Of a stretch of 64,000 nt of DNA, positions 1,932 through 64,000 are shown in pieces. The position numbers were made by a program, and so were the translations under genes. Position 1 is the stretch's first letter. Every line of letters starts with the position of its first letter. Source of the DNA: Amycolatopsis japonica (GTDB lineage Bacteria; Actinomycetota; Actinomycetes; Mycobacteriales; Pseudonocardiaceae); the NCBI RefSeq assembly GCF_000732925.1, contig NZ_CP008953.1, forward strand, positions 6,324,001-6,388,000. The letters are read 5' to 3'. The notes beneath the pieces are model-generated. The model saw only the letters and a list, made by a program, of their open reading frames with translations. It was not told the origin of the DNA and did no database searches.

Positions 1932-3458
1932 ATGGCATCCGGACCGACCGCCGGCCCGCGCCGGTGGACCCGGCCCGGGCGGCTTTCCCTGCGCGCCAAG
2001 CTGACCGGCTCGATGGTGCTGCTGCTCACGTTCGTCTGCCTGGTGATCGGCGTCGCCAGCGAGATCGCGCTGCGGTCGTTCCTCACCCGCCAGATCGACG
2101 ACCAGCTCTCGGCCGCGTCGTCCCGCGCCCACGACTTCGCGAACCGGCCGCCGGAGGACGGGCTCGGTCCCAATCCGCTCAACGCGCCGGGCCAGGCCTC
2201 CGGGACGCTCAGCGTGCGGGTCTCCGGAGACCGCGTGCTCTACGCCGGAGTCCTTACCGTGCAAGGGCTTCCGCAAGGATTGTCGGCCGAGCAGGAGGCC
2301 GGGCTGTTCTCGATCCCGGCGGACCGGCCGCCGATGACGCTGACGATCGGCGGGCTGGGCGACTATCGCGTGCAGGCCGCCTCGATCCCCGGTGGCGTGG
2401 TCGTCACCGGGCTCCCGCTCGGGCCGATGCAGGACACGCTGGCCACCGTCGGGTGGATCCTGTTCGGGGTCGCGGCGGCGGGCGTCACCGGCGCCGGATT
2501 CCTCGGCGCGTTCGCCGTCCGGCGCACGTTGCGGCCGCTCGACCGGGTCGCGGCGACCGCGGGCCGGGTGTCGGCGATGCGGCTCGACCGCGGGCAGGTC
2601 GCGCTTTCCGTGCGGGTGCCCGAGATCGACACCGATCCGCGGACCGAGGTCGGCCAGGTCGGTTCGGCGCTGAACCTCATGCTCGGGCATATCGCGCGGG
2701 CGCTGGAAGCCCGGCAGGCCAGCGAGACCCGGGTCCGCCGGTTCGTCGCCGACGCGAGTCACGAACTCCGCACTCCGCTCGCGGCGATCCGCGGGTACGC
2801 CGAACTCGCCGGCCGCGGCAGCGCGCTGGCGCCGCCGGAGGTCGCGCGTTCGATGTCGCGGATCCAGTCCGAGGCGGCCCGGATGACGACACTGGTCGAG
2901 GATCTCCTCCTGCTCGCGAGACTCGACGCCGGTCGCCCGCTCGAAGCGGGCGAGGTCGACCTCACCCGGCTGGCCGCGGACGCCGTCGGCGACGCGCACG
3001 TCGCGGGCCCGGACCATCGCTGGGAACTCCGGCTCCCGCCGGTTCCCGTCCTCGTCCGCGGCGACGTCCAGCGCCTGCACCAGGTGCTGGCGAATCTGCT
3101 GTCCAACGCGCGCACGCACACCCCGCCGGGCACCACGGTGATCACCGCGCTGACCCGCTCGCACGGCGGGGCCGCGGTGCTCACCGTCACCGACGACGGC
3201 CCCGGGATCGCCCCGGAACTCCTGCCGAGCGTGTTCGAACGCTTCGCCCGCGGTGATTCCTCCCGCTCACGTGCCGCGGGCAGTACCGGGCTCGGGATGG
3301 CGATCGCGTCGGCGATCGTCGTTGCCCATCACGGCACGATCGAGGTGCACAGCCGTCCGGGCCGCACCGAATTCGCCGTCCATCTTCCGGTGATCGGATC
3401 CTCACAGCGGGTGCACAGCTTCGGCACAACCACCCCCCAGGTCGGCCCCCGACGCTGA
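1932..3458 (+). CDS. Sensor histidine kinase (EnvZ/PhoR-like)
   Basis: A 508-residue membrane sensor kinase. A first membrane segment (about 28-50, MVLLLTFVCLVIGVASEIAL) and a second (about 172-197) enclose an extracytoplasmic sensor region of roughly 120 residues. HAMP follows, then the HisKA H-box DASHELRTPL with phospho-acceptor His277, and a HATPase domain with N box (NLLSNARTHT), G1 (DDGPGIAP) and G2 (GSTGLGMAIA). No response regulator gene is in the window; it may be encoded elsewhere. The upstream CACA triple repeat suggests the gene is under the same regulator as the glycosyltransferases that follow 4 nt downstream. The start ATG is set by the exact 60-nt spacing of that repeat. Confidence 0.9.
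   Translation: MASGPTAGPRRWTRPGRLSLRAKLTGSMVLLLTFVCLVIGVASEIALRSFLTRQIDDQLSAASSRAHDFANRPPEDGLGPNPLNAPGQASGTLSVRVSGDRVLYAGVLTVQGLPQGLSAEQEAGLFSIPADRPPMTLTIGGLGDYRVQAASIPGGVVVTGLPLGPMQDTLATVGWILFGVAAAGVTGAGFLGAFAVRRTLRPLDRVAATAGRVSAMRLDRGQVALSVRVPEIDTDPRTEVGQVGSALNLMLGHIARALEARQASETRVRRFVADASHELRTPLAAIRGYAELAGRGSALAPPEVARSMSRIQSEAARMTTLVEDLLLLARLDAGRPLEAGEVDLTRLAADAVGDAHVAGPDHRWELRLPPVPVLVRGDVQRLHQVLANLLSNARTHTPPGTTVITALTRSHGGAAVLTVTDDGPGIAPELLPSVFERFARGDSSRSRAAGSTGLGMAIASAIVVAHHGTIEVHSRPGRTEFAVHLPVIGSSQRVHSFGTTTPQVGPRR
3403..3429 (+). promoter_or_regulatory. Triple 11-bp-spaced CACA repeat before the first ArnT-like gene
   Basis: CACAG at 3403 and 3414, CACAA at 3425; the first repeat begins 60 nt before the ATG at 3463. 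The hexamer GACGCT (3451-3456) sits at -12 to -7. The element lies inside the last codons of the sensor kinase, so the glycosyltransferase should have its own leaderless transcript as well as read-through. Confidence 0.65.
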
Positions 3459-3462
3459 GGCC

Positions 3463-5310
3463 ATGACCCTCCTCGCCTCCCGCGACGAAGCCGATCGAAC
3501 CGCTCCCCCCGCCCGAGGCACGCCGGCCGATCCGCGCTGGGTCCGGCCGTCGCTGGCCGCGCTTCTGCTCGCGACCGCCGTCCTGTACCTGTGGAACCTC
3601 GGGGAATCCGGCTGGGCCAACGCCTTCTACTCGGCGGCCGCGCAGGCGGGATCGCTGAGCTGGAAGGCGTTGTTCTTCGGTTCCAGCGACGCCGCGAACG
3701 CGATCACGGTCGACAAGACACCGGCCGCGTTGTGGGTGATGAGCCTTTCCGCGCGCCTGTTCGGGGTCAACGCCTGGAGTGTCCTGGTGCCGCAGGCGTT
3801 GATGGGCGTCGGCTCGGTCGCGGTGCTGTACGCCGCGGTGCGCCGGACGTCCGGCCCGGCCGCGGGGCTGCTGGCGGGCACCGTCCTCGCGCTCACCCCG
3901 GCCGCCGCGCTGATGTTCCGCTTCAACAACCCCGACGCGTTGCTCGTCCTGCTCCTGACCGCGGGCGCGTACTGCGTCGTCCGCGCCCTGGAGAAAGCGA
4001 GCCCGCGCTGGCTGGCGCTGGCCGGGGTCGCCGTCGGTTTCGGCTTCCTCGCGAAGATGCTGCAAGCGTTCCTGGTGCTGCCCGCGTTCGGGATCGCCTA
4101 TCTGATCGCCGCGCCGACGTCGCTGGGCAAACGCCTGCTGCACCTACTCGGCGCTTTGGGCGCGACCCTCATCTCCGCGGGCTGGTATCTCGCCGTCGTC
4201 GCGCTGTGGCCCGCCGCCGACCGGCCCTACATCGGCGGCTCGCAGGAGAACAGCCTGTGGGAGCTCGCTTTCGGCTACAACGGCCTCGGCCGCATCACCG
4301 GCGACGAGGTCGGCAGTGTCGGCGGGAGTCCCAACGGCGGCTGGGGAGGCACGGGCTGGGACCGGTTGTTCGGGAACGAGATGGCGGGCGGGATCGCCTG
4401 GCTCCTGCCCGCCGCCGCCGTCGCGCTGGCCGCCGGGCTGTGGTTCACGCGCCGTGCCCCGCGCACCGACGGCGGCCGGGCTGCGCTGATCCTCTGGGGC
4501 GGCTGGTTCGTGGTGACCGCCGTCGTGTTCAGCTACATGGGCGGCATCATCCACGCGTACTACACGATCGCGCTCGCCCCGGCGGTGGCCGCGCTCGTCG
4601 GGATCGCGGGCACGCAATTGTGGCGCGCACGGGGGAATCCGGCCGCCGCGGGCACGTTGAGCGCGGGGATCGGGCTGACCGCGCTGACGGCGTATCTCCT
4701 GCTGGCACGGCAATCCGACCGGCTTCCCGGGTTCGCGATCGCGGTCCTCGTGGCCGGACTCCTGTGCGCCTTCCTGGTGTTCTTCGCCTCGCGTTTGCCT
4801 GACGTGGCAAGGCGTCTGGTCGCCCTCGGCGCACTGGTCACGGTTCTCGCAGGCACCGGCGTGTACACGGTCGCGACCGCGGCCACCCCGCATTCCGGCG
4901 CGCTCCCCTCCGCCGGACCGGATACGGGCCGGGGCATGCGGATGGGCGGCGGCGGGTTGCTCGGGACGAGCCTGCCCGGCGACGAACTGGCCGCGCTGAT
5001 CCGGCGGGACAGCGCGAACTACACCTGGGCGGCGGCGACCGTCGGCTCCAACAACGCCGCGGGTTATCAGCTCGGCAGCGGCGCGCCGGTGATGGCCGTC
5101 GGCGGGTTCAACGGCACGGATCCGGCCCCCACACTCGAACAGTTCCAGGAACATGTCCGAAAAGGACGGATACACTACTTCCTCGGCGAAGGCATGATGA
5201 TGCGCGGGGAGACCGGCAGCGACGCCGCCGAGCGGATCGCCGCCTGGGTCGCGGACACCTACGAACCGACCACTGTGGACGGTGTCACCGTCTACGACCT
5301 GAGCCGGTGA
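3463..5310 (+). CDS. ArnT-like glycosyltransferase, family 39
   Basis: A 615-residue polytopic membrane protein of the PMT/ArnT (GT39, GT-C fold) group. The N-terminal loop carries FYSAAAQAG and DKTPAALW, the luminal acidic motif region of the family, followed by about ten hydrophobic segments and a roughly 150-residue soluble C-terminal domain with Gly/Met-rich linker (RGMRMGGGGLLG). Such enzymes move a sugar from a polyprenyl-phosphate donor onto an envelope acceptor on the outer face of the membrane. It starts 4 nt after the kinase. It is a close paralogue of the gene at 6642, and the polyprenyl-sugar synthase-like gene lies between them. The true acceptor is unknown. Confidence 0.85.
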   Translation: MTLLASRDEADRTAPPARGTPADPRWVRPSLAALLLATAVLYLWNLGESGWANAFYSAAAQAGSLSWKALFFGSSDAANAITVDKTPAALWVMSLSARLFGVNAWSVLVPQALMGVGSVAVLYAAVRRTSGPAAGLLAGTVLALTPAAALMFRFNNPDALLVLLLTAGAYCVVRALEKASPRWLALAGVAVGFGFLAKMLQAFLVLPAFGIAYLIAAPTSLGKRLLHLLGALGATLISAGWYLAVVALWPAADRPYIGGSQENSLWELAFGYNGLGRITGDEVGSVGGSPNGGWGGTGWDRLFGNEMAGGIAWLLPAAAVALAAGLWFTRRAPRTDGGRAALILWGGWFVVTAVVFSYMGGIIHAYYTIALAPAVAALVGIAGTQLWRARGNPAAAGTLSAGIGLTALTAYLLLARQSDRLPGFAIAVLVAGLLCAFLVFFASRLPDVARRLVALGALVTVLAGTGVYTVATAATPHSGALPSAGPDTGRGMRMGGGGLLGTSLPGDELAALIRRDSANYTWAAATVGSNNAAGYQLGSGAPVMAVGGFNGTDPAPTLEQFQEHVRKGRIHYFLGEGMMMRGETGSDAAERIAAWVADTYEPTTVDGVTVYDLSR

Positions 5311-25003: not shown

Positions 25004-25133
25004 TCCCGGACCTCCTCCTGCCTGGCGGGTAGCGCAGTGTGAGCGGGCGGACTGGCTCGAAGTGTAGGTCGAATCATGGCACGCTGATGCGACGACCATG
25101 GCTTGGCATGCGTGGTGGAGAGGGTCGACACAG

Positions 25134-29813
<4,680 letters not shown>

Positions 29814-43230: not shown

Positions 43231-44030
43231 CTTGGCTCGAACTCGCGGACGGCGTGTACGCCCGCCGTTACGAGGAGCTGGACCTGACCGTCGGCCTCGT
43301 CGTGGGCGGTGAACGCTGCCTGGTCGTCGACGTGCGCGGTGACGTCGACCAGGGTGCCGAACTGGCCGCGGCGGTGCGGGAGATCACGCCGCTGCCGTGG
43401 TCGGTCGTCTACACCCACGCGCATTTCGATCACGCCTTCGGCACGACGGCGTTCCTGCCGTGCGACGTCTGGGCGCACGAAGGGTGCCTGACCGAGCTGA
43501 CCACCTACGGCGACGGCGCACGGCTCAAATGGATTCAGCACTACCTCGGCGAGAAGCGCCCGGAGATGGCGGAGGCGCTGGAGCGCACCGAAATCACCCT
43601 GCCGGACAAACCCGTCGTCGACACCGCCGAGATCGACCTCGGTGGCCGTACCGTCGTGCTGCGCTTCCTCGGCCGGGCCCACACGGATCACGACCTGTTC
43701 GTGCACGTGCCCGACGCGGGCGTGATCTACGCGGGCGACGCCGTCGAGAACGCCGAAGCCGGCTTCAGCGCGTTCTCCTTCAACGACGGCAGCTTCCTGG
43801 CCGAATGGCCGGGCGTGATGGACGCGATCCTCGCACTGGAGCCGAAGATCATCGTCGCCGGGCACGGAGACCCCGTCGACACCGCGTTCATCGAGAAGCA
43901 CCGCGACGGCCTGCGCGAACTCGTCGCGCTCAAGAGCGGGATCGCGGCGGGAGACCTCACGACGGACGAAGCCGTCGCGAGGTCCTCCTACCCCGAAGAT
44001 GTCACCAGGGGCGCCCTGGAAACCCCTTAG
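43227..44030 (+). CDS. MBL-fold metallo-hydrolase
   Basis: 267 residues. Metallo-beta-lactamase fold with HxHxDH ([11 protein letters not shown], about 63-73), the later metal ligands in [10 protein letters not shown] and IYAGDAVEN, and [11 protein letters not shown] start overlaps the ComB stop by 4 nt with GGAGGA in front, so the two genes are a coupled pair. The substrate is unknown: possible hydrolysis of an ester or thioester. The 3' end overlaps the convergent DsbA-like gene by 4 nt. Confidence 0.85.
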
Positions 44031-44647
44031 TCGAAGTTCAGCTCACCGGACCGGGTGCGCTTCAGCTCGAAGAAGTCCGGGTAGCTCGCCAGCGCGCGGG
44101 CGCCGTCGAACACCTTGACGGCGTCCTCGCCCCGCGGGATCGAGCTGAGCACCGGGCCGAAGAACGCGACACCGTCGATGTGGATGGTCGGGGTGCCGAC
44201 GTCCATTCCGACCGGATTCATACCTTCGTAGTGACTCTTTTTGAGCGCTTCGTCGTACTCGGTCGACTCGGCGGCCTCGGCCAGCTCGGCCGGGGCACCG
44301 ATGGCCTCGAGGGTCTCCTTGATGACCTTCGGGATGTCCTTGTCGCCCTGGTTGTGGTGGCGCGTGCCGAACTCCGTGTAGAAGTCGCGCAGAGCCTCTT
44401 CGCCGTTCTTCTGCGCCAGCGCGGTGGCGACGCGGACGGGGCCCCAGCCACGCTCCAGCAGCTCCTTGTACTGCTCAGGCAGGTCCTCACGGCCGCTGTT
44501 GAGCTCGGACAGGCTCATGATCCGGAACCTCAGGTCGAGGTCGCGGTGCTTCTCCACTTCGAGGATCCAACGCGAGCTGATCCAGGCGAAGGGGCAGATC
44601 GGGTCGAAGTAGAAGTCGACCTTGGTCTTCTCGGACGGGGCGGTCAT
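44027..44647 (-). CDS. DsbA-family protein, mycothiol-dependent nitroreductase-like (Rv2466c type)
   Basis: 206 residues. Thioredoxin-like fold with helical insert; the active-site region is FDPICPFAW (Cys18), followed by [15 protein letters not shown] (cis-Pro loop). The family is FrnE/Rv2466c-like, linked to mycothiol. As I recall, Rv2466c has a CPWC pair, while this protein has only the first Cys, so it would work by a monothiol route. Position next to pepN, as in M. tuberculosis. Start ATG 44647 chosen at the first residue of a compact N-terminus with GGGAGA in front. Confidence 0.82.
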
Positions 44648-44814
44648 CAGGTTCTCCCAGTGCCATCGTCTTGGGGTGGTCCGGTACACACACAGTGCTA
44701 CACAGCGGCCAACATCGCCGCCGTCGGCGTTGTTCCCGTCGTCAGCACGGGCTCCGACATGATTGGATGCCTGTAGTTGGAAACCAAAACCGATACCGAT
44801 GACCAGAGGTGCCA

Positions 44815-47388
44815 GTGCCCGCCCCCAACCTGACCCGAGACCAAGCCAAGCTGCGCGCGGAACTGCTCGACGTCGAGTCCTACGACATCGAGCTGGATCT
44901 GACCGACGGCCGTGGCGGTCCCGGTGAGAAGACCTTCACGTCGAAGACGACGATCAAGTTCGCGAGCGCCAGAAGCGGCGAAGCGTCGTGGGTCGACATC
45001 GTCGCCGAGGGGATCGAGTCGGCCGTCCTCAACGGGACGGAACTCGACGTCAGCGGGTACGTCGAGGACAAGGGCGTCGAGCTGCCCGGGCTCGCCGAGT
45101 CGAACGAGCTCGTCGTGGACGCGGTCTGCCGGTACATGAACACCGGCGAGGGCCTGCACCGGTTCGTCGACCCGGTCGACGACGGCGTCTACCTCTACAC
45201 GCAGTTCGAGACCGCGGACGCGAAGCGCATGTTCGCCTGCTTCGACCAGCCCGACCTCAAGTCGGTCTACCGGCTCACCGTGATCGCGCCGAAGGACTGG
45301 AAGGTCATCTCGAACGCGCTGATCGAATCCACGGAGGAGACCCCGGAAGGGGCCGTCCGCACCGTGTTCAAGGTGTCCGAGCGGATCTCGACCTACCTGG
45401 TCGCGCTGATCGCGGGCCCGTACAGCGAGTGGCGCGACGAATTCTCCGACTCCCACCGCACGATCCCGCTGGGCATCTACTGCCGCGCCTCGCTCGCCGA
45501 GCACATGGACGCGGACAAGCTGTTCACCGAGACCAAGCAGGGTTTCGCCTTCTACCACGAGAAGTTCGCGACCCCGTACCCGTTCTCCAAGTACGACCAG
45601 CTGTTCGTGCCGGAGTTCAACGCGGGCGCGATGGAGAACGCCGGCGCGGTCACCTTCCTGGAGGACTACGTCTTCCGCAGCCGCGTCACCCGCTACGCCT
45701 ACGAGCGCCGCGCCGAGACGCTGCTGCACGAGATGGCGCACATGTGGTTCGGCGACCTGGTCACCATGCGCTGGTGGGACGACCTGTGGCTGAACGAGTC
45801 GTTCGCGACCTTCGCGAGCGTGCTGGCCCAGGCCGAGGCCACCGAGTACAAGAACGCGTGGACCAGCTTCGCGAACATCGAGAAGTCGTGGGCGTACCGG
45901 CAGGATCAGCTGCCCTCGACGCACCCGATCGCCGCGGACATCGTCGACCTGCACGCGGTCGAGGTGAACTTCGACGGCATCACCTACGCCAAGGGCGCGA
46001 GCGTCCTCAAGCAGCTCGTCGCCTATGTCGGGCTGGAGCACTTCCTCGAAGGCCTGAAGGTCTACTTCGGCAAGCACGCCTGGGGCAACGCGACCCTGGC
46101 GGACCTGCTGGGCGCGCTGGAAGAGGCCTCGGGCCGCGACCTGTCGTGGTGGAGCGCGCAGTGGCTGGAGACCACCGGTCTCAACTCGCTGAGCCCGCGC
46201 TACGAGATCGGCGCCGACGGCACGTACTCCGCGTTCGCCGTCACCCAGACCGGCGCCAAGCCGGGTGCCGGTGAGCTGCGCACGCACCGCGTCGCGGTCG
46301 GCGTCTACGACGAGGACGAGAACGGCAAGATCGTCCGCAAGCACCGCGTCGAGCTCGACGTGGACGGCGAGCGCACCGAGGTGCCGGGGCTGGTCGGTCT
46401 CCCGGCGGGCAAGCTCGTGCTGGTCAACGACGACGACCTGACCTACTGCACGATGCGGCTCGACCCGGCGTCGCTGACCACGCTGATCGACCGCATCGCC
46501 GACATCACCGAACCGCTGCCCCGCACGCTGTGCTGGTCGGCGGCGTGGGAGATGACGCGCGAGGCCGAGCTCAAGGCCCGCGACTTCGTCACGCTGGTGC
46601 AGCGTGGCGTGCACACCGAGACCGAGGTCGGCGTGGTGCAGCGGCTGCTGCTGCAGGCGCAGACGGCGCTGAACTCGTACGCGAAGCCGGAATGGGCGGC
46701 GGACAAGGGCTGGCCGGAGTTCTCCGCGCGGCTGCTGGAGCTGGCGCAGGGCGCCGAGGCCGGTTCGGACCACCAGCTCGCGTTCGTGAACTCGCTCGCC
46801 GGTTGCGTGCTCGACGACAAGACGCTGGCGATCATCGCGGGCTGGCTCGACGGCACGGCGCCGCTGGAGGGCCTGACCGTCGACACCGACCTGCGCTGGC
46901 GGCTGCTGCACGCGCTGGTCGCGCACGGCAAGGCCGAGAACCCCGAGATCGACGCCGAGCTCGGCAAGGACGACACCGCCGCCGGACGGCGCCAGGCGGA
47001 GCGCTCACGGGCGCTGCGGCCGACCGCCGAGGCGAAGGCCGACGCGTGGCAGCGGGCGGTGTACGACGACGAGCTGCCCAACGCGGTCAGCGACTCGCTC
47101 ATCACCGGCTTCTCCCACCCGGGCCAGAAGCACCTGCTAGGCGACTACGTGACGCGCTACTTCGAGGTCATCGACGAGGTGTGGCAGCGGCGCTCCAGCG
47201 AGCGGGCGCAGCCGACCGTGGTCGGGCTGTACCCGTCGTGGGCCGTCGAGCCGGCGACGGTCACGGCGTCGGACGAGTGGCTGGCCGGGGAGCACCCGGC
47301 GGCGCTGCGCCGTCTCGTGTCGGAAGGCCGGGCCGGGATCGTGCGGGCGCTGGCCGCCCGTGAGTTCGACTCGCAGGCCGGCAACTAG
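44815..47388 (+). CDS. pepN: Aminopeptidase N
   Basis: 857 residues from GTG 44815 (GTG 44809 also possible; AGAGG fits 44815 better). M1 family: GAMEN at about 271-275 (substrate N-terminus binding), [27 protein letters not shown] (zinc HExxH at 305 and Glu) and a long C-terminal ERAP1-like helical domain. It removes N-terminal residues from peptides in the cytoplasm. Full family length. Divergent from the DsbA-like gene and followed by the GPF hairpin. Confidence 0.93.
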
Positions 47389-47397
47389 TCCCGTAAC

Positions 47398-47450
47398 GCA
47401 ATGAAAGGTCCTTTCCTCGCAAATTTTGCGAGGAAAGGACCTTTCATTGC
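47398..47450. terminator. GPF-family hairpin, copy B (23-7-23)
   Basis: Perfect 23-bp arms 47398-47420 and 47428-47450, loop AAATTTT, 10 nt after the pepN stop and between convergent genes. Compared with copy A, two stem pairs have changed together (T-A to C-G near the loop; C-G to A-T near the base), which keeps the pairing. Confidence 0.8.
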
Positions 47451-47472
47451 ACTTGAAGCGGGTTGAAGAGCG

Positions 47473-47955
47473 TCAGTGCTGCGGAGCGCCCGCCTGGTCG
47501 CTCAGCATGCGGAGGGCGTTCACGAGGCCACCGACGAGGTCGCCTTCCTTGAACGAGGCCACCATGCTGGCCACGGCGAGCTTCGCGCCGCGGTCGGGCA
47601 GACGGTGCCGGGCCTGCGAGCCCGTCACGACCTCGATCGCCCGCTGGCCGGGCGACACGGCGATGACGACACCGTCGGCCGCGTTGTCCGTCGAGGCCAG
47701 CAGACCTTCGGCGGTGGCGCGGGTGTCCTCGCCGAGGTCACCCAGGTACACACTGAAGTCCAGGCCGGTCTCGCGGCTGGCGAGCGTCAGCGCCTCGTCC
47801 AGCCGGGCGAGCTGCTGGGTCGTGAATGGGCTGATCGGCCCAGCCGGTTCGTACATCTTGGCGGCGGAAATCCGGCCGCTCGAGGTAACGGCGGCGCCGT
47901 AACCGGGCTCTTCGTCAACAGCGGTGGACGAATGGGTCAGTTCACCAGTTGCCAC
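47473..47955 (-). CDS. DUF5130 domain protein (TPM-like)
   Basis: 160 residues. AKMYEPAGPISPFTTQQLARLDEALTLASRETG followed by SVYLGDLGEDTRATAEGLLAS and VVIAVSPGQRAIEVVTG match the DUF5130 family, which has a TPM-type fold. No membrane segment. GTG start. From memory the M. tuberculosis equivalent is Rv2468c, next to pepN. Function unknown. Confidence 0.78.
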   Translation of the reverse strand: MATGELTHSSTAVDEEPGYGAAVTSSGRISAAKMYEPAGPISPFTTQQLARLDEALTLASRETGLDFSVYLGDLGEDTRATAEGLLASTDNAADGVVIAVSPGQRAIEVVTGSQARHRLPDRGAKLAVASMVASFKEGDLVGGLVNALRMLSDQAGAPQH

Positions 47956-48205
47956 GAGCGCCTCCCGTCACCGTCGCTCCGTCCGCGGCGACGACGGCGG
48001 TCGCGCCGCCCTCGTTCGCGTGCGAATGCCTCGCGCCGACACCGTCGGGGTTGGCGCTCCACCACATGGCCGGGTACTCCCACGGCTGCCCCGGCCGGTA
48101 CCGGGCGACGCCCGCGCCCTTCGACCGCAGCGTGGCCACCCCGCACAGCGCGTAGATGGCCAAGGGGATCACCGCGAAGACCAGGATCGTCTCGACAAGG
48201 TTCAC
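47942..48205 (-). CDS. Small membrane protein
   Basis: 87 residues from GTG 48205. One N-terminal membrane helix (about 3-23, VETILVFAVIPLAIYALCGVA), then RYRPGQPWEYPAMWWSANP and a Gly/Ala-rich tail. Not a named family, though the YRPGQPWEYPPMWW-type stretch is a familiar actinobacterial one. It overlaps the start of the DUF5130 gene by 14 nt on the same strand and is probably co-transcribed. The spacer 48206-48496 upstream holds no gene that I can support. Confidence 0.65.
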   Translation of the reverse strand: MNLVETILVFAVIPLAIYALCGVATLRSKGAGVARYRPGQPWEYPAMWWSANPDGVGARHSHANEGGATAVVAADGATVTGGARGNW

Positions 48206-48496
48206 GCGCGTGAGCGTATCCGATGGCGTGGGACCGCACCCGCTCGCACGGCCTTGCGCCTCGGTACCTACCGCTCGTCGTCCGGAGGGGGCCGTCCGCC
48301 GCTTGCCGCGAAAGCGCTCCCACGTTGGGGCGAAGCCCTCAAGGCCGAAAGGTTGCAACTCAACGTACGGGCGGCCGCACCCGGCGCTGTCGTCTTGTCG
48401 CGGCCTTGAAATCCTCGTAGCTTTTTCACCTGTACGGGCCTTGCGCCCAGCTCCCCCACCCCAGCAGGTAACGCACCGGTCGCAGGAGGATATGTC

Positions 48497-48850
48497 ATGC
48501 AGAGCACCCAGACACCCGGCCAGGCGATCATCGACGACATTTCGTCACTCTTCGAAATTGGATTCGTCCCCGGTACGCGTGTGACGGCGGGCACACGGGT
48601 TACGCGCGGTACTCGTGTCACTCGCGGTACGCGGGTCACCGCCGGCACCCGGGTCACCCGCGGAACCCGCGTCACGCGTGGCACCCGCGTCACCGCCGGA
48701 ACCCGCGTCACCCGTGGCACGCGAGTCACCCGAGGCACCCGCGTGACGGCCGGCACCCGCGTCACCTGCGGCACGCGTGTCACTCGCGGCACCCGGGTCA
48801 CCCGTGGCACCCGCGTCACCTGCCAGAGCGACTTCTCTCTCGCCGCCTGA
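48497..48850 (+). CDS. Hexapeptide-repeat protein (14 x GTRVTx)
   Basis: 117 residues. A 25-residue non-repetitive head (MQSTQTPGQAIIDDISSLFE, no signal peptide) leads into 14 exact copies of GTRVTx (residues 26-109), then QSDFSLAA. The sixth residue runs A R R A R R A R R A C R R C, an 18-residue super-period. Codons for the same residues vary freely (Thr ACG/ACA/ACT/ACC; Val GTG/GTT/GTC), so the peptide is conserved and not a recent DNA duplication. Read as V-T-x-G-T-R it fits the [LIV]xxx[STAV]x rule of left-handed beta-helices, where 18 residues make one coil. Very basic (22 Arg). An AGGAGG ribosome binding site lies 6 nt before the ATG. Function unknown. Confidence 0.75.
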   Translation: MQSTQTPGQAIIDDISSLFEIGFVPGTRVTAGTRVTRGTRVTRGTRVTAGTRVTRGTRVTRGTRVTAGTRVTRGTRVTRGTRVTAGTRVTCGTRVTRGTRVTRGTRVTCQSDFSLAA

Positions 48851-48917
48851 GTCCGAGCACGACCGGTTCGTAGGGGACGGCGTACTCGTAGCGAGCTTCA
48901 CCACGGCGTCATCGGCC

Positions 48918-48947
48918 CGCCCCGGCCGCCGAAAGGCAGCCGGGGCG
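48918..48947. terminator. Bidirectional terminator
   Basis: Perfect 9-bp arms (CGCCCCGGC at 48918-48926 and complement 48939-48947) with a 12-nt loop, between the convergent hexapeptide-repeat and HNH genes. Confidence 0.7.
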
Positions 48948-48967
48948 CCGACGTGTTCAGGACCGGG

Positions 48968-49729
48968 TCAGGCCGCGGTTCCCAGGTACGGCCGCCACAA
49001 CGGGTCGGCCTCCTTCGAATGCGCGAGCAGCCGCCAGTGCGGCCCGTGCGGGGCCCTCGGCACGACGCGCAGGCGCCAGCCGATCTCGGAAAGCAGCTTG
49101 TCCGCCTTCCGGTGGTTGCACTTGGCGCAGCACGCCACGCAGTTCGTCCAGCTGTGGGGACCTCCGCGACTGCGCGGGACGACATGGTCGATGGTCTCGG
49201 CCCGCCCTCCGCAGTAGGCGCAGCGGTACCGGTCGCGGTGCATCAGCCCGGCCCGGGTCAGCGGCACCTGCGCGCGGTAGGGCACGCGCACGTAGGTGCT
49301 CAGCCGGATCACCGAAGGCACGGGCAGCGAGACCGTGGCGGCGTGCAGTTCGAGCCCCGCCGGGTCTCCGTGCACCACCTCGGCCTTGCCGCACATCACG
49401 AGGACCACCGCGCGCCGCAACGGCAGCGCCGTGAGCGGTTCGAACGTGGCGTTCAACAGCAATACCCGTCTGCGGCCCCACGACGTCGTAGTGGGTGCCG
49501 CCGTAGTCGACGGATCCCGCCCTCTACGCTGTCCGGGCGGGCGGGCAACACCCCCTGGCCGCGTTCCCGGCCCGCCCGGTGGAGCCCCGTGCGAGGGGGC
49601 ACCTCCCGGATGGGCGCGCAACACGACCTCCGGCGCCTGTCCGGCCACGGCTTGGCTCGGGACGCCGAGGGGGATGGGTTGTCGGTCTGGCACTCGACCA
49701 CCTCCACCGGTGCAGGCATAGTCGACCAC
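48968..49729 (-). CDS. HNH endonuclease
   Basis: 253 residues from the first GTG; the real start may be up to 85 residues later, since the N-terminal part is a Pro/Gly-rich stretch without fold and the domain begins at RVLLLNATFEPL. The HNH core is HRDRYRCAYCGGRAETIDHVVPRSRGGPHSWTNCVACCAKCNHRKADK: two CxxC zinc pairs around DHVVPRSRGG, the conserved form. This is the stand-alone actinobacterial type (from memory Rv2469c), present in the same gene order there. Likely a DNA nuclease; target unknown. Confidence 0.8.
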   Translation of the reverse strand: MVDYACTGGGGRVPDRQPIPLGVPSQAVAGQAPEVVLRAHPGGAPSHGAPPGGPGTRPGGVARPPGQRRGRDPSTTAAPTTTSWGRRRVLLLNATFEPLTALPLRRAVVLVMCGKAEVVHGDPAGLELHAATVSLPVPSVIRLSTYVRVPYRAQVPLTRAGLMHRDRYRCAYCGGRAETIDHVVPRSRGGPHSWTNCVACCAKCNHRKADKLLSEIGWRLRVVPRAPHGPHWRLLAHSKEADPLWRPYLGTAA

Positions 49730-49871
49730 AGATCAGCCCCAAAGTGCACGTGTGTTACTGGACGTGTCACATGCGCGCGACCCGGCGGCCACATGAAGTT
49801 GGGTGTTTCGCATCCGCCGGGGCGTGTGGCGTGACCGATCCCCGCCGAGTACGAAAGGACATTTCCTCTCC

Positions 49872-50852
49872 GTGAACCTGCTGCCCACCGAACCCCCGGC
49901 CTGCACGCGCGAAGCCGGCAGCCTGTGCTACCAGGTGTTCCAGGTCACAAAGAACGAATGGCTCTCCGCGTCGGCAGGCTGGCTGCTGACGAAGCCGCTC
50001 AGGATCCTGATGATCGTCGCCGTGGCGTTCCTGCTGCGGTACCTGGTGCGGCGTCTGATCAACCGCGTGACGCGGATGCCCGGCGGCGGCTCCTCGAAGC
50101 TGCCCGCGCTGTTGAGACCGCTGCGGGAGAGGGCTCCCGAGGTGCTCGGGTCGGCGGTGATGGAACGGCGCCGTCAGCGCGCCGCCACCATCGGCTCGGT
50201 GCTCAAGTCGATGGCCACGTTCCTGATCTACGGCCTCGCGTTCATCCTGGTGCTGGGCGAACTGGGCATCGACCTCGCGCCGATCATCGCTTCGGCGGGC
50301 ATCGTCGGCGTGGCGCTCGGGTTCGGCGCGCAGAACCTGGTCAAGGACTTCCTGTCCGGCATGTTCATGATGATCGAGGACCAGTACGGCGTCGGTGACG
50401 TCGTCGACGTCGGTGAGGCGTCCGGCACCGTCGAGGCCGTCGGCCTCCGGATCACCACCCTGCGTGACATCAACGGCACCGTCTGGTACGTCCGCAACGG
50501 CGAGGTGCTGCGGGTCGGCAACTCGAGCCAGGGCTTCGCGGTGGCCGTCGTCGACGTCCCGCTCAGCTACTCCGCCGACGTCGAGAAGGCCACCGAACTG
50601 ATGGCCGAGAAGGCGAAGACGCTCCTGGAGAGCGAAAGCCTCTCGCCGAACGTGCTGGAACCGCCGGAGATGCTCGGTGTGGAGACCGTCACGCCCGAAG
50701 GCATCAAGCTCCGGCTGACGGTGAAGGTCCGGCCGGGCAAGCAGTGGTCCGTGCAGCGCGCGCTGCGGGCGCACCTGCTCGCCGCGCTCGACGAAGCAGG
50801 CTTCGAGCCACCTCTGGGGCGCTTTATGTCGTCCGGCCCGGCCTCGCAGTAG
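49872..50852 (+). CDS. Small-conductance mechanosensitive channel (MscS family)
   Basis: 326 residues from GTG 49872. Three membrane helices (about 37-57, 108-130, 136-155), the last being the Gly/Ala-packed pore helix ([25 protein letters not shown]), then the beta domain ([28 protein letters not shown]) and the C-terminal alpha/beta part. Releases solutes on osmotic downshock. It stands before glbO with a 26-nt gap and is probably in one operon with it. In M. tuberculosis, as I recall, this gene is not at this place. Confidence 0.88.
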
Positions 50853-50878
50853 GACAAGGGCAGAATGGAGCTGTGTCC

Positions 50879-51268
50879 GTGACCGAACCTGATCCCACCA
50901 CCTTGTACGAAGCCATCGGCGGTGAACCGGTGTTCACCCGGATCGTCGCGCGGTTCTACGCCGAAGTGGCGGTCGACGAGGTGCTTCGCCCGCTGTACCC
51001 GGAGGAGGACCTCGGCCCGGCCGAGGAGCGTTTCCGGCTGTTCCTCATGCAGTACTGGGGCGGCCCGCACACCTACTCCGACCAGCGCGGTCACCCGCGG
51101 CTGAGGATGCGGCACGCCCCGTTCAAGATCGGCCCGATCGAACGCGACGCCTGGTTGCGCTGCATCAAGATCGCGGTCGACGAGGAGAACATCGAGGAGC
51201 CCTACCGCGGGCAGCTGTGGGCGTACCTGGAGATGGCCGCCAACAGCATGATGAACAGTTTCGTGTGA
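50879..51268 (+). CDS. glbO: Group II truncated hemoglobin
   Basis: 129 residues from GTG 50879, chosen over GTG 50873 because GGAG (50867-50870) lies 8 nt ahead. A TrHb[23 protein letters not shown] (helices A-B with the Tyr B10 region), [28 protein letters not shown] (with proximal His in MRHAPF) and ERDAWLRCI (Trp G8). It binds O2/NO and may protect against peroxide or NO. Its stop overlaps the alpha-glucosidase ATG (TGATG), as in the glbO-aglA pair of mycobacteria. Confidence 0.92.
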
Positions 51269-52821
51269 TGGAACGCGACGTGGCTTGGTGGGCCCAGGCG
51301 GTCTTCTACCAGGTCTACGTGCGCTCGTTCGCCGATTCGGACGGGGACGGCGTCGGTGACCTCGAAGGCATCCGCGGCAAGCTCGGGTACCTGGAGCTGC
51401 TCGGGGTCGACGCGCTGTGGCTGACGCCGTTCTACCGCTCCCCCATGGCCGACCACGGCTACGACATCGCCGACCCGCGCGACGTCGACCCGATGTTCGG
51501 CACCCTCGGCGATTTCGACGTGCTCCTGACCGAAGCGCACAAACGCGGCATCAAGGTCACCGTCGACGTCGTCCCCAACCACACCAGCAACACCCACGCC
51601 TGGTTCAAATCGGCGATGGCGGCGCCGCCGGGCAGCCCGGAGCGGGATCGCTACATCTTCCGTGACGGGCTCGGCCCGCGCGGCGACCAGCCGCCGAACA
51701 ACTGGGTCAGCTCGTTCGGCGGCCCGGCGTGGACGCGGGTGCCGGACGGCCAGTGGTACCTGCACCTGTTCTCGCCGCAGCAGCCGGATCTGAACTGGGC
51801 CAACCACGAGGTCGCCGCCGATCTGGAGCGGACCCTGCGGTTCTGGCTGGACCACGGTGTGGACGGTTTCCGCGTCGACGTCGCGCACGGTATGGCGAAA
51901 CCGCCGGGCCTGCCGGACATGGACCCGCGGGTGAACCCGCTGGGGCCGAGCGAGTTCTACGATCCGCGCTTCGACAACGACCGCGTCCACGAGATCCACC
52001 AGATGATCCGCAAGGTGCTCGACGAATACCCGGGCACCATGGCCGTCGGCGAGATCTGGGTGACCGACGAGGAACGCCTCGCCCGCTATCTGCGGCCGGA
52101 CGAACTGCACCTGGCGTTCAACTTCCGGCTCGTGCTCACGCATTTCGACGCGGACGCGCTGCGGACGGCCATCGAGCGGTCCCTGGCGGTGCCGAAGGCC
52201 GCCGGGGCCCCCGCCACCTGGACGTTGAGCAACCACGACGTCTGGCGCCAGGTCAGCCGGTACGGCGGCGGCGAACGCGGCGTCCGGCGCGCCAGGGCGA
52301 TGGCGCTCGTCGAACTGGCGCTGCCCGGAGCGGTTTATCTGTACAACGGCGAGGAACTGGGGCTCGGCAACGTCGACATCCCGCCCGACGCGGTCGCGGA
52401 TCCGCGCGCCAAGATCTCCGGTGCCGAGTTCGGCCGGGACGCGTCACGCGTGCCGCTGCCGTGGGAAGGCGACCTGCCGCCGTTCGGTTTCTCGCGCAAC
52501 CCGAGGACGTGGCTGCCGATGCCCGCCTCGTGGGCGTCGGTGACCGTCGAAGCGCAGCTGGAGGCTCCGGCGTCGACGCTGTCGCTGTACCGGCGGGCGA
52601 TCGAGATCCGCAAGTCGCACCAGGCGTTCCGCGGGGACGAGCTGGAGTGGTACGGCGCCCCGGCCGGCTGTTTCGCGTTCCGGCGGCGCGGTGGCGGGTT
52701 GGTCTGCGCGCTGAACACGTCGGCGAGCCCGATCGCGTTGCCGCCGGGCGAGGTGCTGCTGTCCAGTGTGCCGTTGGTGAACGGGAAACTGCCGCCGGAC
52801 GCGGCCGCCTGGCTCGTCTGA
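51268..52821 (+). CDS. aglA: GH13 alpha-glucosidase
   Basis: 517 residues. GH13 subfamily of oligo-1,6-/alpha-glucosidase type: QVYVRSFADSDGDGVGDL at the start, DVVPNHTS, the nucleophile Asp204 in FRVDVAHG, the acid/base Glu262 in AVGEIW and the third carboxylate Asp324 in LSNHDVW. Cytoplasmic, acts on short alpha-glucans or maltose-type sugars. Translationally coupled to glbO. The GPF-family hairpin follows 12 nt after the stop. Confidence 0.9.
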   Translation: MERDVAWWAQAVFYQVYVRSFADSDGDGVGDLEGIRGKLGYLELLGVDALWLTPFYRSPMADHGYDIADPRDVDPMFGTLGDFDVLLTEAHKRGIKVTVDVVPNHTSNTHAWFKSAMAAPPGSPERDRYIFRDGLGPRGDQPPNNWVSSFGGPAWTRVPDGQWYLHLFSPQQPDLNWANHEVAADLERTLRFWLDHGVDGFRVDVAHGMAKPPGLPDMDPRVNPLGPSEFYDPRFDNDRVHEIHQMIRKVLDEYPGTMAVGEIWVTDEERLARYLRPDELHLAFNFRLVLTHFDADALRTAIERSLAVPKAAGAPATWTLSNHDVWRQVSRYGGGERGVRRARAMALVELALPGAVYLYNGEELGLGNVDIPPDAVADPRAKISGAEFGRDASRVPLPWEGDLPPFGFSRNPRTWLPMPASWASVTVEAQLEAPASTLSLYRRAIEIRKSHQAFRGDELEWYGAPAGCFAFRRRGGGLVCALNTSASPIALPPGEVLLSSVPLVNGKLPPDAAAWLV

Positions 52822-61782: not shown

Positions 61783-64000
61783 TCAGTCGCTCCCGTTGGC
61801 GCGGTGCCGGTCGTGACCGTTGACCGGACGCTTTCCCGAGTCCTGGGAACCGAGCTGCTTCACGAGCGCGGCAGCGCTGGCGGTGCCCGCCTGGTGCTCG
61901 GCGAGCGCGCGGGCGAGCAGGTCGGCGAGACCGGCGTCCGGCGGCGGTTCCTCCTCCGCGATCGCGCGGGCGTAGCTCTCCGGGAACGGCGTGATCGGCC
62001 GCCAGGAACCGGTGTCGGTCAGCGGGTCCAGCGCGGGCGGCATCCGCAACCGCGGCAGCCACGGATCCGCGACCTCTTCCTTGGCGGCCGGACGAGCGCT
62101 TTCCTGAGTCTGCGAAGGCGCGGGATCTTCCCGCGGTGGCGGGGCGAGCGGGACGGCGGGCTCGCGGTACTCGACCGGAGGCTGTTCCCGGCGGGTCTCG
62201 GCGCGTTCTTCGGCGACGGGTTCGGGGTGCACGGGATCCGCGGCGGCGTCCGCACGACGACGTCCGCCGCCGTGTCCACCGGCGCTCGAGATCCCGAGCC
62301 GGTCCAGCACCGATTTCGCCGCCACGGAACCGTGTTCGGCGTCGTGCCGGGTCTTGCGCGAGACGGGCGCCGACGACCGGCGGGCCCGCTCTTCGGCCGC
62401 CCATTCGTCGCTCTCCCACAACGGGGCGGCGGTGCCGGGCGGACGCGGCGGCGTGGCCTCCGCCGCCATCCGCGGCCGGGGCTCGGCGGCGGGCTCGGGT
62501 GCGAGAAGCAGTTCCGGGACCACGGGTTCCGAGGCCACCACGGGCACCGGCTCCTCGGTCCGGGCGGGCGCTTCGGCTTCGGCCCGCCACCGTGCGGCCG
62601 GAGCCGGGGTTTCGGGTCGAGCGACCACGGGTTCGGCAACGGTCTCACGCGCCGCGGGTGTTTCCGGACGACGACGGCGCCCAGGCTCCGGCTCGGGACG
62701 CGACACCGGCGCGGGTTCCGGTTTCGGCGGCGGCATCAGTTTCGGCGCGGCGGGTTCGGCCTTGGGCTCGAACCTGATCGACGGCTTGGCCTTCTTCGGC
62801 ACCCGACGACGCCAGTCGCTGTCGGACTCCGCCACATCTCGTGTGGGCTCCGGACGGGACGGCGGCTTCAACACCGGTGCTTCGCTCTTTTCGGCGACCG
62901 GCGCCGCGGGCCGCTCCGCCGGACGCGGTGGCTCGGCAGGAGGCGCAGGCTCGGCGGGACGCACAGGCTCCGCGGGACGCGAAGACACAGCCGCGCGCGC
63001 AGGCTCGACCGGCGCCTGCCGCACCGGCGCGGGCTCCGGCTGCCTGCTCTGCCGCACGGGCTGCGGCTCACGACGAACCGGCGGCTCGGCCGCAGCCCGC
63101 TTTGGCGGTGCTACGTCGATCGGCGGGATCACCGCGGTCACCTCGGCCGGTTCCGGCGCCGGAACGGCCGCCGGCGTGGACGCCGCCGCGGCCGACCGCG
63201 CGGCGACGGCCCGCAAGACGTCGTCGAGGTCGACAGCGGCGTTCTCGGCCGAGCCGAACTCGCCGACCAGGACGTTGCACGCCTGCCTGCGCGCGCGGGC
63301 GTGCAGATGCTCGGCGGCCCGCGAACGGTGCAGGCAACCGATGGCCTCTTCGGCCCGGCCCAGCCGTTCCTCGATCTGCGCGAGCTCCAGCCACAGCCGT
63401 GCCGTGACGGCGTGCAGGTTGTGGTCGCCGGTCCCGGCGACCGCCTCACGGACGAGCATTCCGGCGGCCTCGCCGGATCCCGCGGGCAGCAGGACGCGGG
63501 TGGCCACCGCCAGCCGCAGCCAGGCGGCAGGCGCGATCCCCGCGGCCCGGACGGGGGCGTCGAGGATCGGCTGCGCGACCTCCAGCGCCATCTCCGTGTC
63601 GCCCCGGTCCAGCAACGTGCAGACGAGTTGCAGGATCAGCCTGATCCGGACGAGACCGCCGTCGTCGTCCGGGTTTCCGAGCTTTTCGAGCATGCCCAGC
63701 CCGGTCCGCGCGGCATCGGCGGCCGCCGTCAGGTCTCCGTGCCGACGGCGGTGCGCCGACACCCCGACCCGCAGCATCGCGCGGATCAGCAACTGCGAGT
63801 CCGCCGTCATCGAGCCGTCGCCGAGCACGAGCTTGTCCGCTTCGGCGAGCACCCGGTCCAGTTCCGCCTTCCGGCCGAACTGCGCCAGGCAGCCGACGAG
63901 GTGGCACAACGCCTCGGCCCGGTGCGACGGCGAAACCGCCGGATCCGCCAGCAACGGACGCAACGCGGCCAGCCCCGTCAACGGGATGCCGACGCTGCGC
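61783..64000 (-). CDS. TPR-like protein with long Pro/Ala/Glu-rich tail, 5' truncated
   Basis: The frame is open to the right edge, so the start is outside the window; about 739 residues are visible. The first ~260 residues are helical repeats of TPR/Sel1 type (ALCHLVGCLAQFGRKAELDRVL, LWLELAQIEERLGRAEEAIGCL). The following ~400 residues are low-complexity Pro/Ala/Glu/Arg, then an ordered C-terminus (PDAGLADLLARALAEHQAGTASAAALVKQLG). Common pattern in Pseudonocardiaceae regulators or scaffold proteins, but I do not recognise it. It might be a signalling scaffold; no firm function. Confidence 0.65.
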   Translation of the reverse strand, partial: RSVGIPLTGLAALRPLLADPAVSPSHRAEALCHLVGCLAQFGRKAELDRVLAEADKLVLGDGSMTADSQLLIRAMLRVGVSAHRRRHGDLTAAADAARTGLGMLEKLGNPDDDGGLVRIRLILQLVCTLLDRGDTEMALEVAQPILDAPVRAAGIAPAAWLRLAVATRVLLPAGSGEAAGMLVREAVAGTGDHNLHAVTARLWLELAQIEERLGRAEEAIGCLHRSRAAEHLHARARRQACNVLVGEFGSAENAAVDLDDVLRAVAARSAAAASTPAAVPAPEPAEVTAVIPPIDVAPPKRAAAEPPVRREPQPVRQSRQPEPAPVRQAPVEPARAAVSSRPAEPVRPAEPAPPAEPPRPAERPAAPVAEKSEAPVLKPPSRPEPTRDVAESDSDWRRRVPKKAKPSIRFEPKAEPAAPKLMPPPKPEPAPVSRPEPEPGRRRRPETPAARETVAEPVVARPETPAPAARWRAEAEAPARTEEPVPVVASEPVVPELLLAPEPAAEPRPRMAAEATPPRPPGTAAPLWESDEWAAEERARRSSAPVSRKTRHDAEHGSVAAKSVLDRLGISSAGGHGGGRRRADAAADPVHPEPVAEERAETRREQPPVEYREPAVPLAPPPREDPAPSQTQESARPAAKEEVADPWLPRLRMPPALDPLTDTGSWRPITPFPESYARAIAEEEPPPDAGLADLLARALAEHQAGTASAAALVKQLGSQDSGKRPVNGHDRHRANGSD

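Follow-up and report, generated by a model that had tools for sequence, protein, structure and literature searches.

Lineage-specific pentapeptide arrays at a retained actinobacterial locus: a possible multivalent linear-motif protein in Amycolatopsis and its relatives

The 64,000-nucleotide stretch of the Amycolatopsis japonica genome analysed here (contig NZ_CP008953.1; hereafter the window) carries a small plus-strand gene whose product is built around a tandem array of the pentapeptide GTRVT. In this gene and its relatives, the pentamer hardly varies among the copies of an array or among the members of a lineage and is exchanged wholesale between lineages, the leader, tail, copy number and linker length all being much freer. 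The gene lies at one locus in most cases examined and, within its own family (Pseudonocardiaceae), behind one conserved promoter-region element. Judged from sequence comparison, a linear motif shown to one partner fits three features: the strict pentamer, the latitude in spacing, copy number, charge and flanking sequence, and the concerted change of pentamer from one lineage to another. Our tentative preference is for a multivalent array of the short linear motif [GS][TVI]R[VI]x, whose sequence may be held by a co-evolving partner that the array would bait by titrating or clustering it. The gene deserves attention in that it is more constrained than five of its neighbours, has matches in 80 of 80 genomes of the antibiotic-producing genus Amycolatopsis, and was read as an array at the loci of 37 of the 46 genus codes in our family sample, while no described family or function was found for it.

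The array gene and its coding strand

The gene occupies positions 48497..48850 (+, stop included), starts with ATG behind the ribosome binding site AGGAGG (48484..48489, +, read from the sequence), and encodes 117 amino acids. A leader of weak constraint (residues 1-25, 48497..48571, +) precedes the array (residues 26-108, 48572..48820, +), in which 14 exact GTRVT copies are joined by one-residue linkers (ARRARRARRACRR), and the protein closes with the C-terminal tail CQSDFSLAA (48821..48847, +). The linkers run in the order A RR A RR A RR A C RR, then C. Tandem Repeats Finder (TRF) reports both an 18-bp period (12.8 copies, 76% matches) and a 54-bp period (4.3 copies, 81% matches), so the 18-residue super-period is real in the window protein. 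Between units, DNA similarity is 0.79 at a distance of three versus 0.74 at one or two, a slight excess that block duplication would give. Third codon positions differ in 58% of between-copy comparisons (L001; L numbers denote loci), and the gene is single copy in its Amycolatopsis genome, the sole other match being its own minus strand. The description given in an earlier note, made from the letters of the window alone, holds in these respects: the frame, its 14 copies, the strong ribosome binding site, the super-period and the codon variation were all recovered. Its remarks on context also stand, as no Sec signal peptide is evident by eye, the leader having no hydrophobic core, and no modifying or maturation enzyme was seen among the neighbours scanned or the conserved neighbours, distant genes lying outside that search.

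A minus-strand frame with TRVPRV repeats (48268-48819) overlaps the array and appears equally conserved, because wobble positions coincide on both strands. AGR arginine codons, which are silent on the plus strand but disrupt the minus-strand peptide, occur in 196 of 1759 GTRVT units (arrays of 112 distinct proteins). The window array has no AGR codon and hence cannot separate the strands by this test; the codons of its relatives rule out the minus-strand open reading frame (ORF) as the coding frame and identify the plus strand as coding.

Selection on the peptide

Constraint was estimated as the ratio of non-synonymous to synonymous differences (pN/pS) from uncorrected pairwise counts in two orthologue groups of equal array length, each distinct protein being represented by a single genome; duplicates of a protein (L003, L004 and others), arrays of other lengths, and the less regular L093 (rearranged units) and L106 (11 exact pentamers) lie outside these groups. 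For the pentamers, the counts are 645 synonymous and 8 non-synonymous differences among 9 genomes (pN/pS 0.006), and 1870 and 30 among 16 genomes (0.008), which bears out the earlier claim that the peptide is under selection. Corresponding values for the leader are 0.686 (36 synonymous, 82 non-synonymous; 9 genomes) and 0.424 (340 and 479; 16 genomes), and for the tail 0.266 (38 and 38) and 0.177 (111 and 74). Among neighbouring genes, for which nearly the same first group and 10 genomes of the second were used, pN/pS is 0.055 and 0.081 for the HNH endonuclease-domain gene and 0.098-0.177 for DUF5130, pepN, mscS and glbO. The array is several times more constrained than the surrounding genes, while the leader drifts. 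Over all arrays, units with at most one mismatch from their own type number 2431, of which 2383 are exact, and third codon positions within arrays differ at 0.51 on average (153 arrays).

Lineage-specific pentamers

Tracing the promoter-region element, and then the HNH gene, into genera without GTRVT led to the same gene built of other pentamers. The 158 distinct proteins (227 loci) comprise eleven types, namely GTRVT (112), GVRIS (22), SVRIT (11), GVRVT (3), GTRIT (3), GVRIH (2), and one protein each of GVRVN, GIRVN, GVRIE, GIRVT and GVRIN. Arg is the only pentamer residue constant across types; because types were assigned, after the frames had been read, by the fixed pattern [GS][TVI]R[VI] plus T, S, N, H, E or V, this consensus is partly one of construction, and arrays outside it would be missed. 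Four loci are left out of the array table (L082, L138, L150 and L224), of which L150 and L224 look like chance hits of the element. Arrays hold 2-51 copies, the smallest (2-4 copies) being those of L217, L178, L211 and L245, and linkers between exact copies span 1-35 residues. Within the commonest longer linkers the residue directly after the pentamer varies less than the middle, as does, in SVRIT and four-residue GVRIS linkers, the residue before the next pentamer.

Changes of type were counted on a tree of the HNH sequences next to the arrays, built by a quick method from 88 of the 171 distinct ones (GTRVT subsampled to 32; L241, L249, L251 and L256 dropped), with 32 of its 85 inner branches left open. 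Its 76 rows with arrays need no fewer than 11 changes, the minimum for eleven types being 10. Pentamer types are thus inherited, and switched rarely and as a whole.

Promoter-region element and C-terminal tail

The conserved 22-bp element TTTCACCTGTACGGGCCTTGCG (48424..48445, +) starts 73 nt before the ATG and reaches from the edge of the -10 into the likely 5' end of the mRNA. It begins directly after a putative -10, TAGCTT (48418..48423, +), which stands 17 bp behind a putative -35, TTGTCG (48395..48400, +); both were read from the sequence and the alignment, and we take them to be promoter hexamers by likeness to the consensus. The transcription start is likely the purine at element position 9 (48432). 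A second upstream stretch, CGAAAGGTTGCAACTCAACGTACGGGCGG (48346..48374, +), is similar in Amycolatopsis, Prauserella and near kin in the alignment and contains the palindrome GTTGCAAC about 20 bp before the -35 region. The cross-genus alignment shows an upstream stretch that is conserved while its reading frame shifts, so it works at the level of DNA or RNA, not of an encoded peptide.

At up to 2 mismatches, the element occurs in 115 of 200 family genomes and its backward-read control in 18, which means that chance accounts for some of the single hits. The order sample of 249 genomes has the element in 33, all of them belonging to the 42 genomes of its own family, with 0 among the 207 outside. 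Among 30 HNH-anchored loci, taken mostly from genomes in which the element had not yet been seen plus seven outside the family, it was found (up to 4 mismatches) in 11 of 14 loci with arrays and in 0 of 16 without. Of 148 distinct proteins with a near element, 145 have its start 70-75 nt from the ATG, as picked by a Shine-Dalgarno rule; this distance is kept, whereas the sequence of the spacer is not. RNAalifold on 66 leaders gave no common fold, and the four Rfam matches on the 5' leader all fall under the gathering score. The A. japonica genome has one exact copy of the element and a single further site with 3 mismatches; the backward control also yields one site, which rules out a regulon defined by this element.

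The tail of the window protein resembles the tag encoded by the transfer-messenger RNA (tmRNA) of its own genome, AEPKSQREFALAA, the only tag read, which ends in SQREFALAA (ARAGORN on L199), and the tails of relatives, two of which (L039, L043) end in RSEFALAA. The end [FYL]xLA[AG] is present in 57 of 158 proteins (47 GTRVT, 8 SVRIT, 1 GVRIH and 1 GTRIT), and every one of the 11 SVRIT proteins has the ending [LVI]A[AG]. Given this likeness, the natural reading is that the tail would be a built-in ssrA-like degron.

Structure and known families

The unit GTRVTx resembles the hexapeptide rule of left-handed beta-helix proteins (PF00132), and the earlier note had suggested a possibly new beta-helix family with 18-residue coils. 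Of this suggestion, a strongly selected repeat protein with no fitting Pfam or NCBIfam family is supported; the left-handed beta-helix with 18-residue coils is not. The note took disappearance of the 18-residue pattern among relatives as a refutation, and this was observed. All 9 genomes compared from the window's subgroup keep the 18-residue coil. In a sister Amycolatopsis subgroup linkers are of the ARRAMARRMACRRM kind in 16 of 16 compared and the period is lost, and other genera have other pentamers and other linker lengths, hexad spacing being absent in several types. Because only one subgroup has the period, the data lend the beta-helix reading no support. A structural rod was one of the roles that the note had listed; different pentamers in the same gene of related lineages suggest a recognition motif instead.

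Structure prediction, which the earlier note had proposed as a check, gave no confident fold: AlphaFold2 returned a mean predicted local distance difference test (pLDDT) of 68, with five models ranging from 68 to 46, and a predicted template modelling score (pTM) of 0.60. Foldseek against the PDB gave no match at E <= 0.001 among 159. VIA-align lists solenoids and pentapeptide-repeat proteins at Z mostly below 8, a level that its own note calls common. PF00132 has no match in the window protein at E <= 1; among 10 relatives L207 passes (31 against a cut-off of 27) and L235 and L245 lie below the cut-off. A weak NCBIfam match of the window protein is to an LpxD-type model (22.8 bits, cut-off 207). 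No description of this gene was recognised in the open-access literature searched.

As far as the cited passages describe it, AfsS of Streptomyces coelicolor has 63 amino acids with three repeats of a 12-amino-acid segment and a downstream mechanism called unclear (PMC2267785). It has its own regulated promoter (passages of PMC2267785, PMC3733707 and PMC6988585), and an AfsS-like sequence is reported as not found in Saccharopolyspora erythraea (PMC3733707). Compared by these descriptions, the array protein is likewise small and actinobacterial, with short repeats and its own promoter; it differs in unit length and copy number. AfsS shows that small repeat proteins can be global regulators in actinobacteria.

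Arrays outside the family

Matches in other families reach E ~3e-12. We read 16 of the listed match regions (one inside the family), of which 12 are unrelated low-complexity repeats or hold no array and four are short motif arrays (L272, L273, L275 and L276; genus code g49, family f4). Three of these are mini-genes of GTRVG: six copies in 40 amino acids in L276 (571-690, +), seven in 46 amino acids in L273 (580-717, +) and six in L272 (reverse strand). They start with MFAAR, MSAAR or MSESR, end with the last pentamer and have a near-absent leader; the element is missing (best 7-9 mismatches). In g49, 8 of 17 genomes match at E <= 0.001, three strongly. The mini-genes sit between ctaJ and the HNH gene, oriented as in the window, so the array gene is either older than the family or has moved between families. 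The fourth region, L275, holds five DNA-identical copies of GIRVS from about 817 on the reverse strand, within a 68-residue open frame on a short contig; no neighbour match was found within 6 kb that would tie it to the ctaJ-HNH locus.

A different gene was met in L082, a contig labelled as an Aeromicrobium metagenome-assembled genome, where two tandem proteins (1971-2753 and 2958-3608, both +) carry 12 and 5 GTRVT copies. Their arrays have varied codons and follow directly after what by eye is a likely Sec signal peptide; the first protein has a sub-threshold beta/gamma-crystallin match behind the array. The element was not found in the fetched L082 stretch (best 9 mismatches). Among 394 genomes of the class, in a search that scored only a few candidates per genome, 4 match the L082 protein at E <= 1e-10, three via the family arrays and the fourth, G283, via residues 83-228, mostly the part behind the array.

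Proposed function and alternative explanations

Copies that stay identical despite free codons, a whole array switched between lineages and a retained locus form an unusual pattern, one that points to a sequence-specific partner and for which the natural pentamer variants offer ready specificity controls. In the mechanism that we propose, a small protein of the cytosol would carry its function in a single pentapeptide, [GS]-[TVI]-R-[VI]-x (x being T, S, N, H, E or G), repeated on a flexible chain. The invariant Arg and the beta-branched residue on either side of it would make each copy a binding site for one co-evolving partner in the cell, and because all copies would bind the one partner, the array could serve as a multivalent bait that titrates or clusters it. 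The conserved promoter would determine the protein level, together with fast turnover of the ClpXP type in those proteins that have the tail. One possibility, by analogy with Streptomyces AfsS, is that the partner is a global regulator, which would give the array a bearing on the control of secondary metabolism in Amycolatopsis and its kin.

Several observations weigh against such a bait. Preferred linker length depends on the type (1 in GTRVT, 3-4 in GVRIS and SVRIT, 6 in GVRVT, 2 in GIRVT and GIRVN), which a pure model of independent motifs does not require. The one-residue linkers of Amycolatopsis are themselves constrained, with 107 synonymous and 0 non-synonymous differences among 9 genomes (pN/pS 0.000) and 618 and 78 among 16 (0.045); this fits linear motifs if one residue flanks two of them at once, but it fits a fold too. 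Pentamer strictness is not absolute, as L106, a member of the genus, keeps only 11 of 14 exact, and the strict tail is missing from 101 of the 158 proteins. The copies within the GTRVG mini-genes hardly differ in DNA, so they carry no evidence of selection. Relatives also give scattered beta-solenoid-like profile matches, some of which pass the Pfam cut-offs of beta-structured families.

These last matches favour a beta-helix, as does the strict hexad period of the GTRVG arrays. One rival is unlikely on balance and still serious: each pentamer would be a short beta-strand, with positions 2 and 4 inward and R outward, and the strands of successive copies would build up a solenoid or an amyloid-like rod. 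Stacking in register requires that the copies of one array be identical and allows joint drift between lineages. The low and inconsistent AlphaFold2 confidence, the lack of a Foldseek match at the threshold given above, the wide range of linker lengths and the arrays of only 2-4 copies speak against it, and an all-Arg ladder without acidic partners, as in GTRVT arrays, would be expected to be repulsive. Somewhat more doubtful is a multi-copy peptide precursor, cut, perhaps by ClpXP and peptidases, into pentamer peptides that would act as an intracellular or exported signal of the RRNPP/Phr kind or be modified as ribosomally synthesized and post-translationally modified peptides (RiPPs). Array pentapeptides with Arg recall Phr peptides, identical short cores are repeated with variable spacers as in multi-core RiPP precursors and RRNPP/Phr peptides, the cores change in a coordinated, lineage-specific way, and the ssrA-like tail would suit such processing. 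However, at the array locus no export signal, maturation gene, receptor gene or conserved leader was found; the conserved neighbours scanned include no transporter, modifying enzyme, or protease other than pepN, no spacer residue is common to all types, and the leader is the least conserved part (pN/pS 0.42-0.69), the opposite of RiPP leaders. We would give slightly less credence again to a molecular password, in which a lineage's own pentapeptide, displayed in a high-copy array, would be read by a co-evolving receptor and might be an intracellular or cell-to-cell identity signal; this reading is kept because L082 shows GTRVT arrays on proteins with likely signal peptides.

Two further explanations seem improbable. 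An arginine-rich binder of nucleic acid or another polyanion, a function that the earlier note had also raised, would agree with the +11.7 to +22.6 net charges per 100 amino acids of GTRVT proteins; SVRIT proteins, however, average -0.1 (n=11, range -5.9 to +9.3), yet their pentamer is about as strict (4 of 175 counted units deviate), and since these arrays are near neutral, polyanion binding in general is very unlikely. It is harder still to credit that translation of the array is itself selected, through ribosome pausing or as a sensor of translation rate. Rare codons are indeed commoner in GTRVT arrays than in six neighbouring window genes (ACT 0.10 versus 0.01, AGG 0.11 versus 0.04), but codons are free while the peptide is fixed, and there is no co-directional downstream gene to regulate, the HNH gene being convergent.

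Distribution and gene neighbourhood

The nearest named loci, with 99-100% identical protein, include those of A. oliviviridis, A. keratiniphila and A. azurea. In 77 of 80 named loci the gene is flanked by ctaJ and the HNH gene; two of the exceptions (L066, L081) are cut by contig ends, and the third, L082, is the different gene described above. Of the 200 genomes in the family sample, 122 match at E <= 0.001, many of them weakly (near E 1e-3 to 1e-5). Seven genus codes, each with one or two genomes, have no array beside the HNH gene: in g3, g4, g28, g36 and g37 the ctaJ-HNH gap is short or nil, and in g5 and g42 ctaJ was not found beside HNH, so an array could lie elsewhere. Of the remaining genus codes, g27 has matches only and g12 was assigned to neither class. 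Scans of viral contigs with the protein, the tandem pattern and the element gave no match. A tblastn search of phages and plasmids returned nothing either, a result that its low-complexity filter renders uninformative. One locus titled Rhodococcus rhodnii (L042) has an array and element closely similar to those of Kibdelosporangium (L051, L078) and is perhaps a mislabelled strain.

The neighbours of the array gene are ctaJ, DUF5130, HNH and mscS. The divergent upstream gene ctaJ, an aa3-type cytochrome oxidase subunit (NCBIfam NF050118, 95.9 bits, cut-off 43), has mechanical ORF bounds of 47942..48358 (-); its real start is probably nearer 48200, because the NF050118 match covers residues 53-138 only. 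The convergent HNH gene (48968..49729, -) was assigned by PF14279 and PF01844, both above cut-off, and by synteny. Over 44027-52821 the window reads Rv2466c-like, pepN, DUF5130, ctaJ, the array gene, HNH, mscS, globin and glucosidase, an order that we take to resemble the Rv2466c-Rv2471 region of Mycobacterium tuberculosis, the globin and glucosidase names being given by eye.

Elsewhere in the window, a 276-bp tandem repeat (25614-27734; 7.7 copies, 81% matches) lies inside a 1571-amino-acid ORF (25098-29813, +), opposite which the minus strand is also open over 1558 codons. An 18-bp repeat of 5.3 copies (62913-63007) lies inside a 732-amino-acid ORF (61783-63981, -) with a long middle rich in Pro, Ala and Glu.
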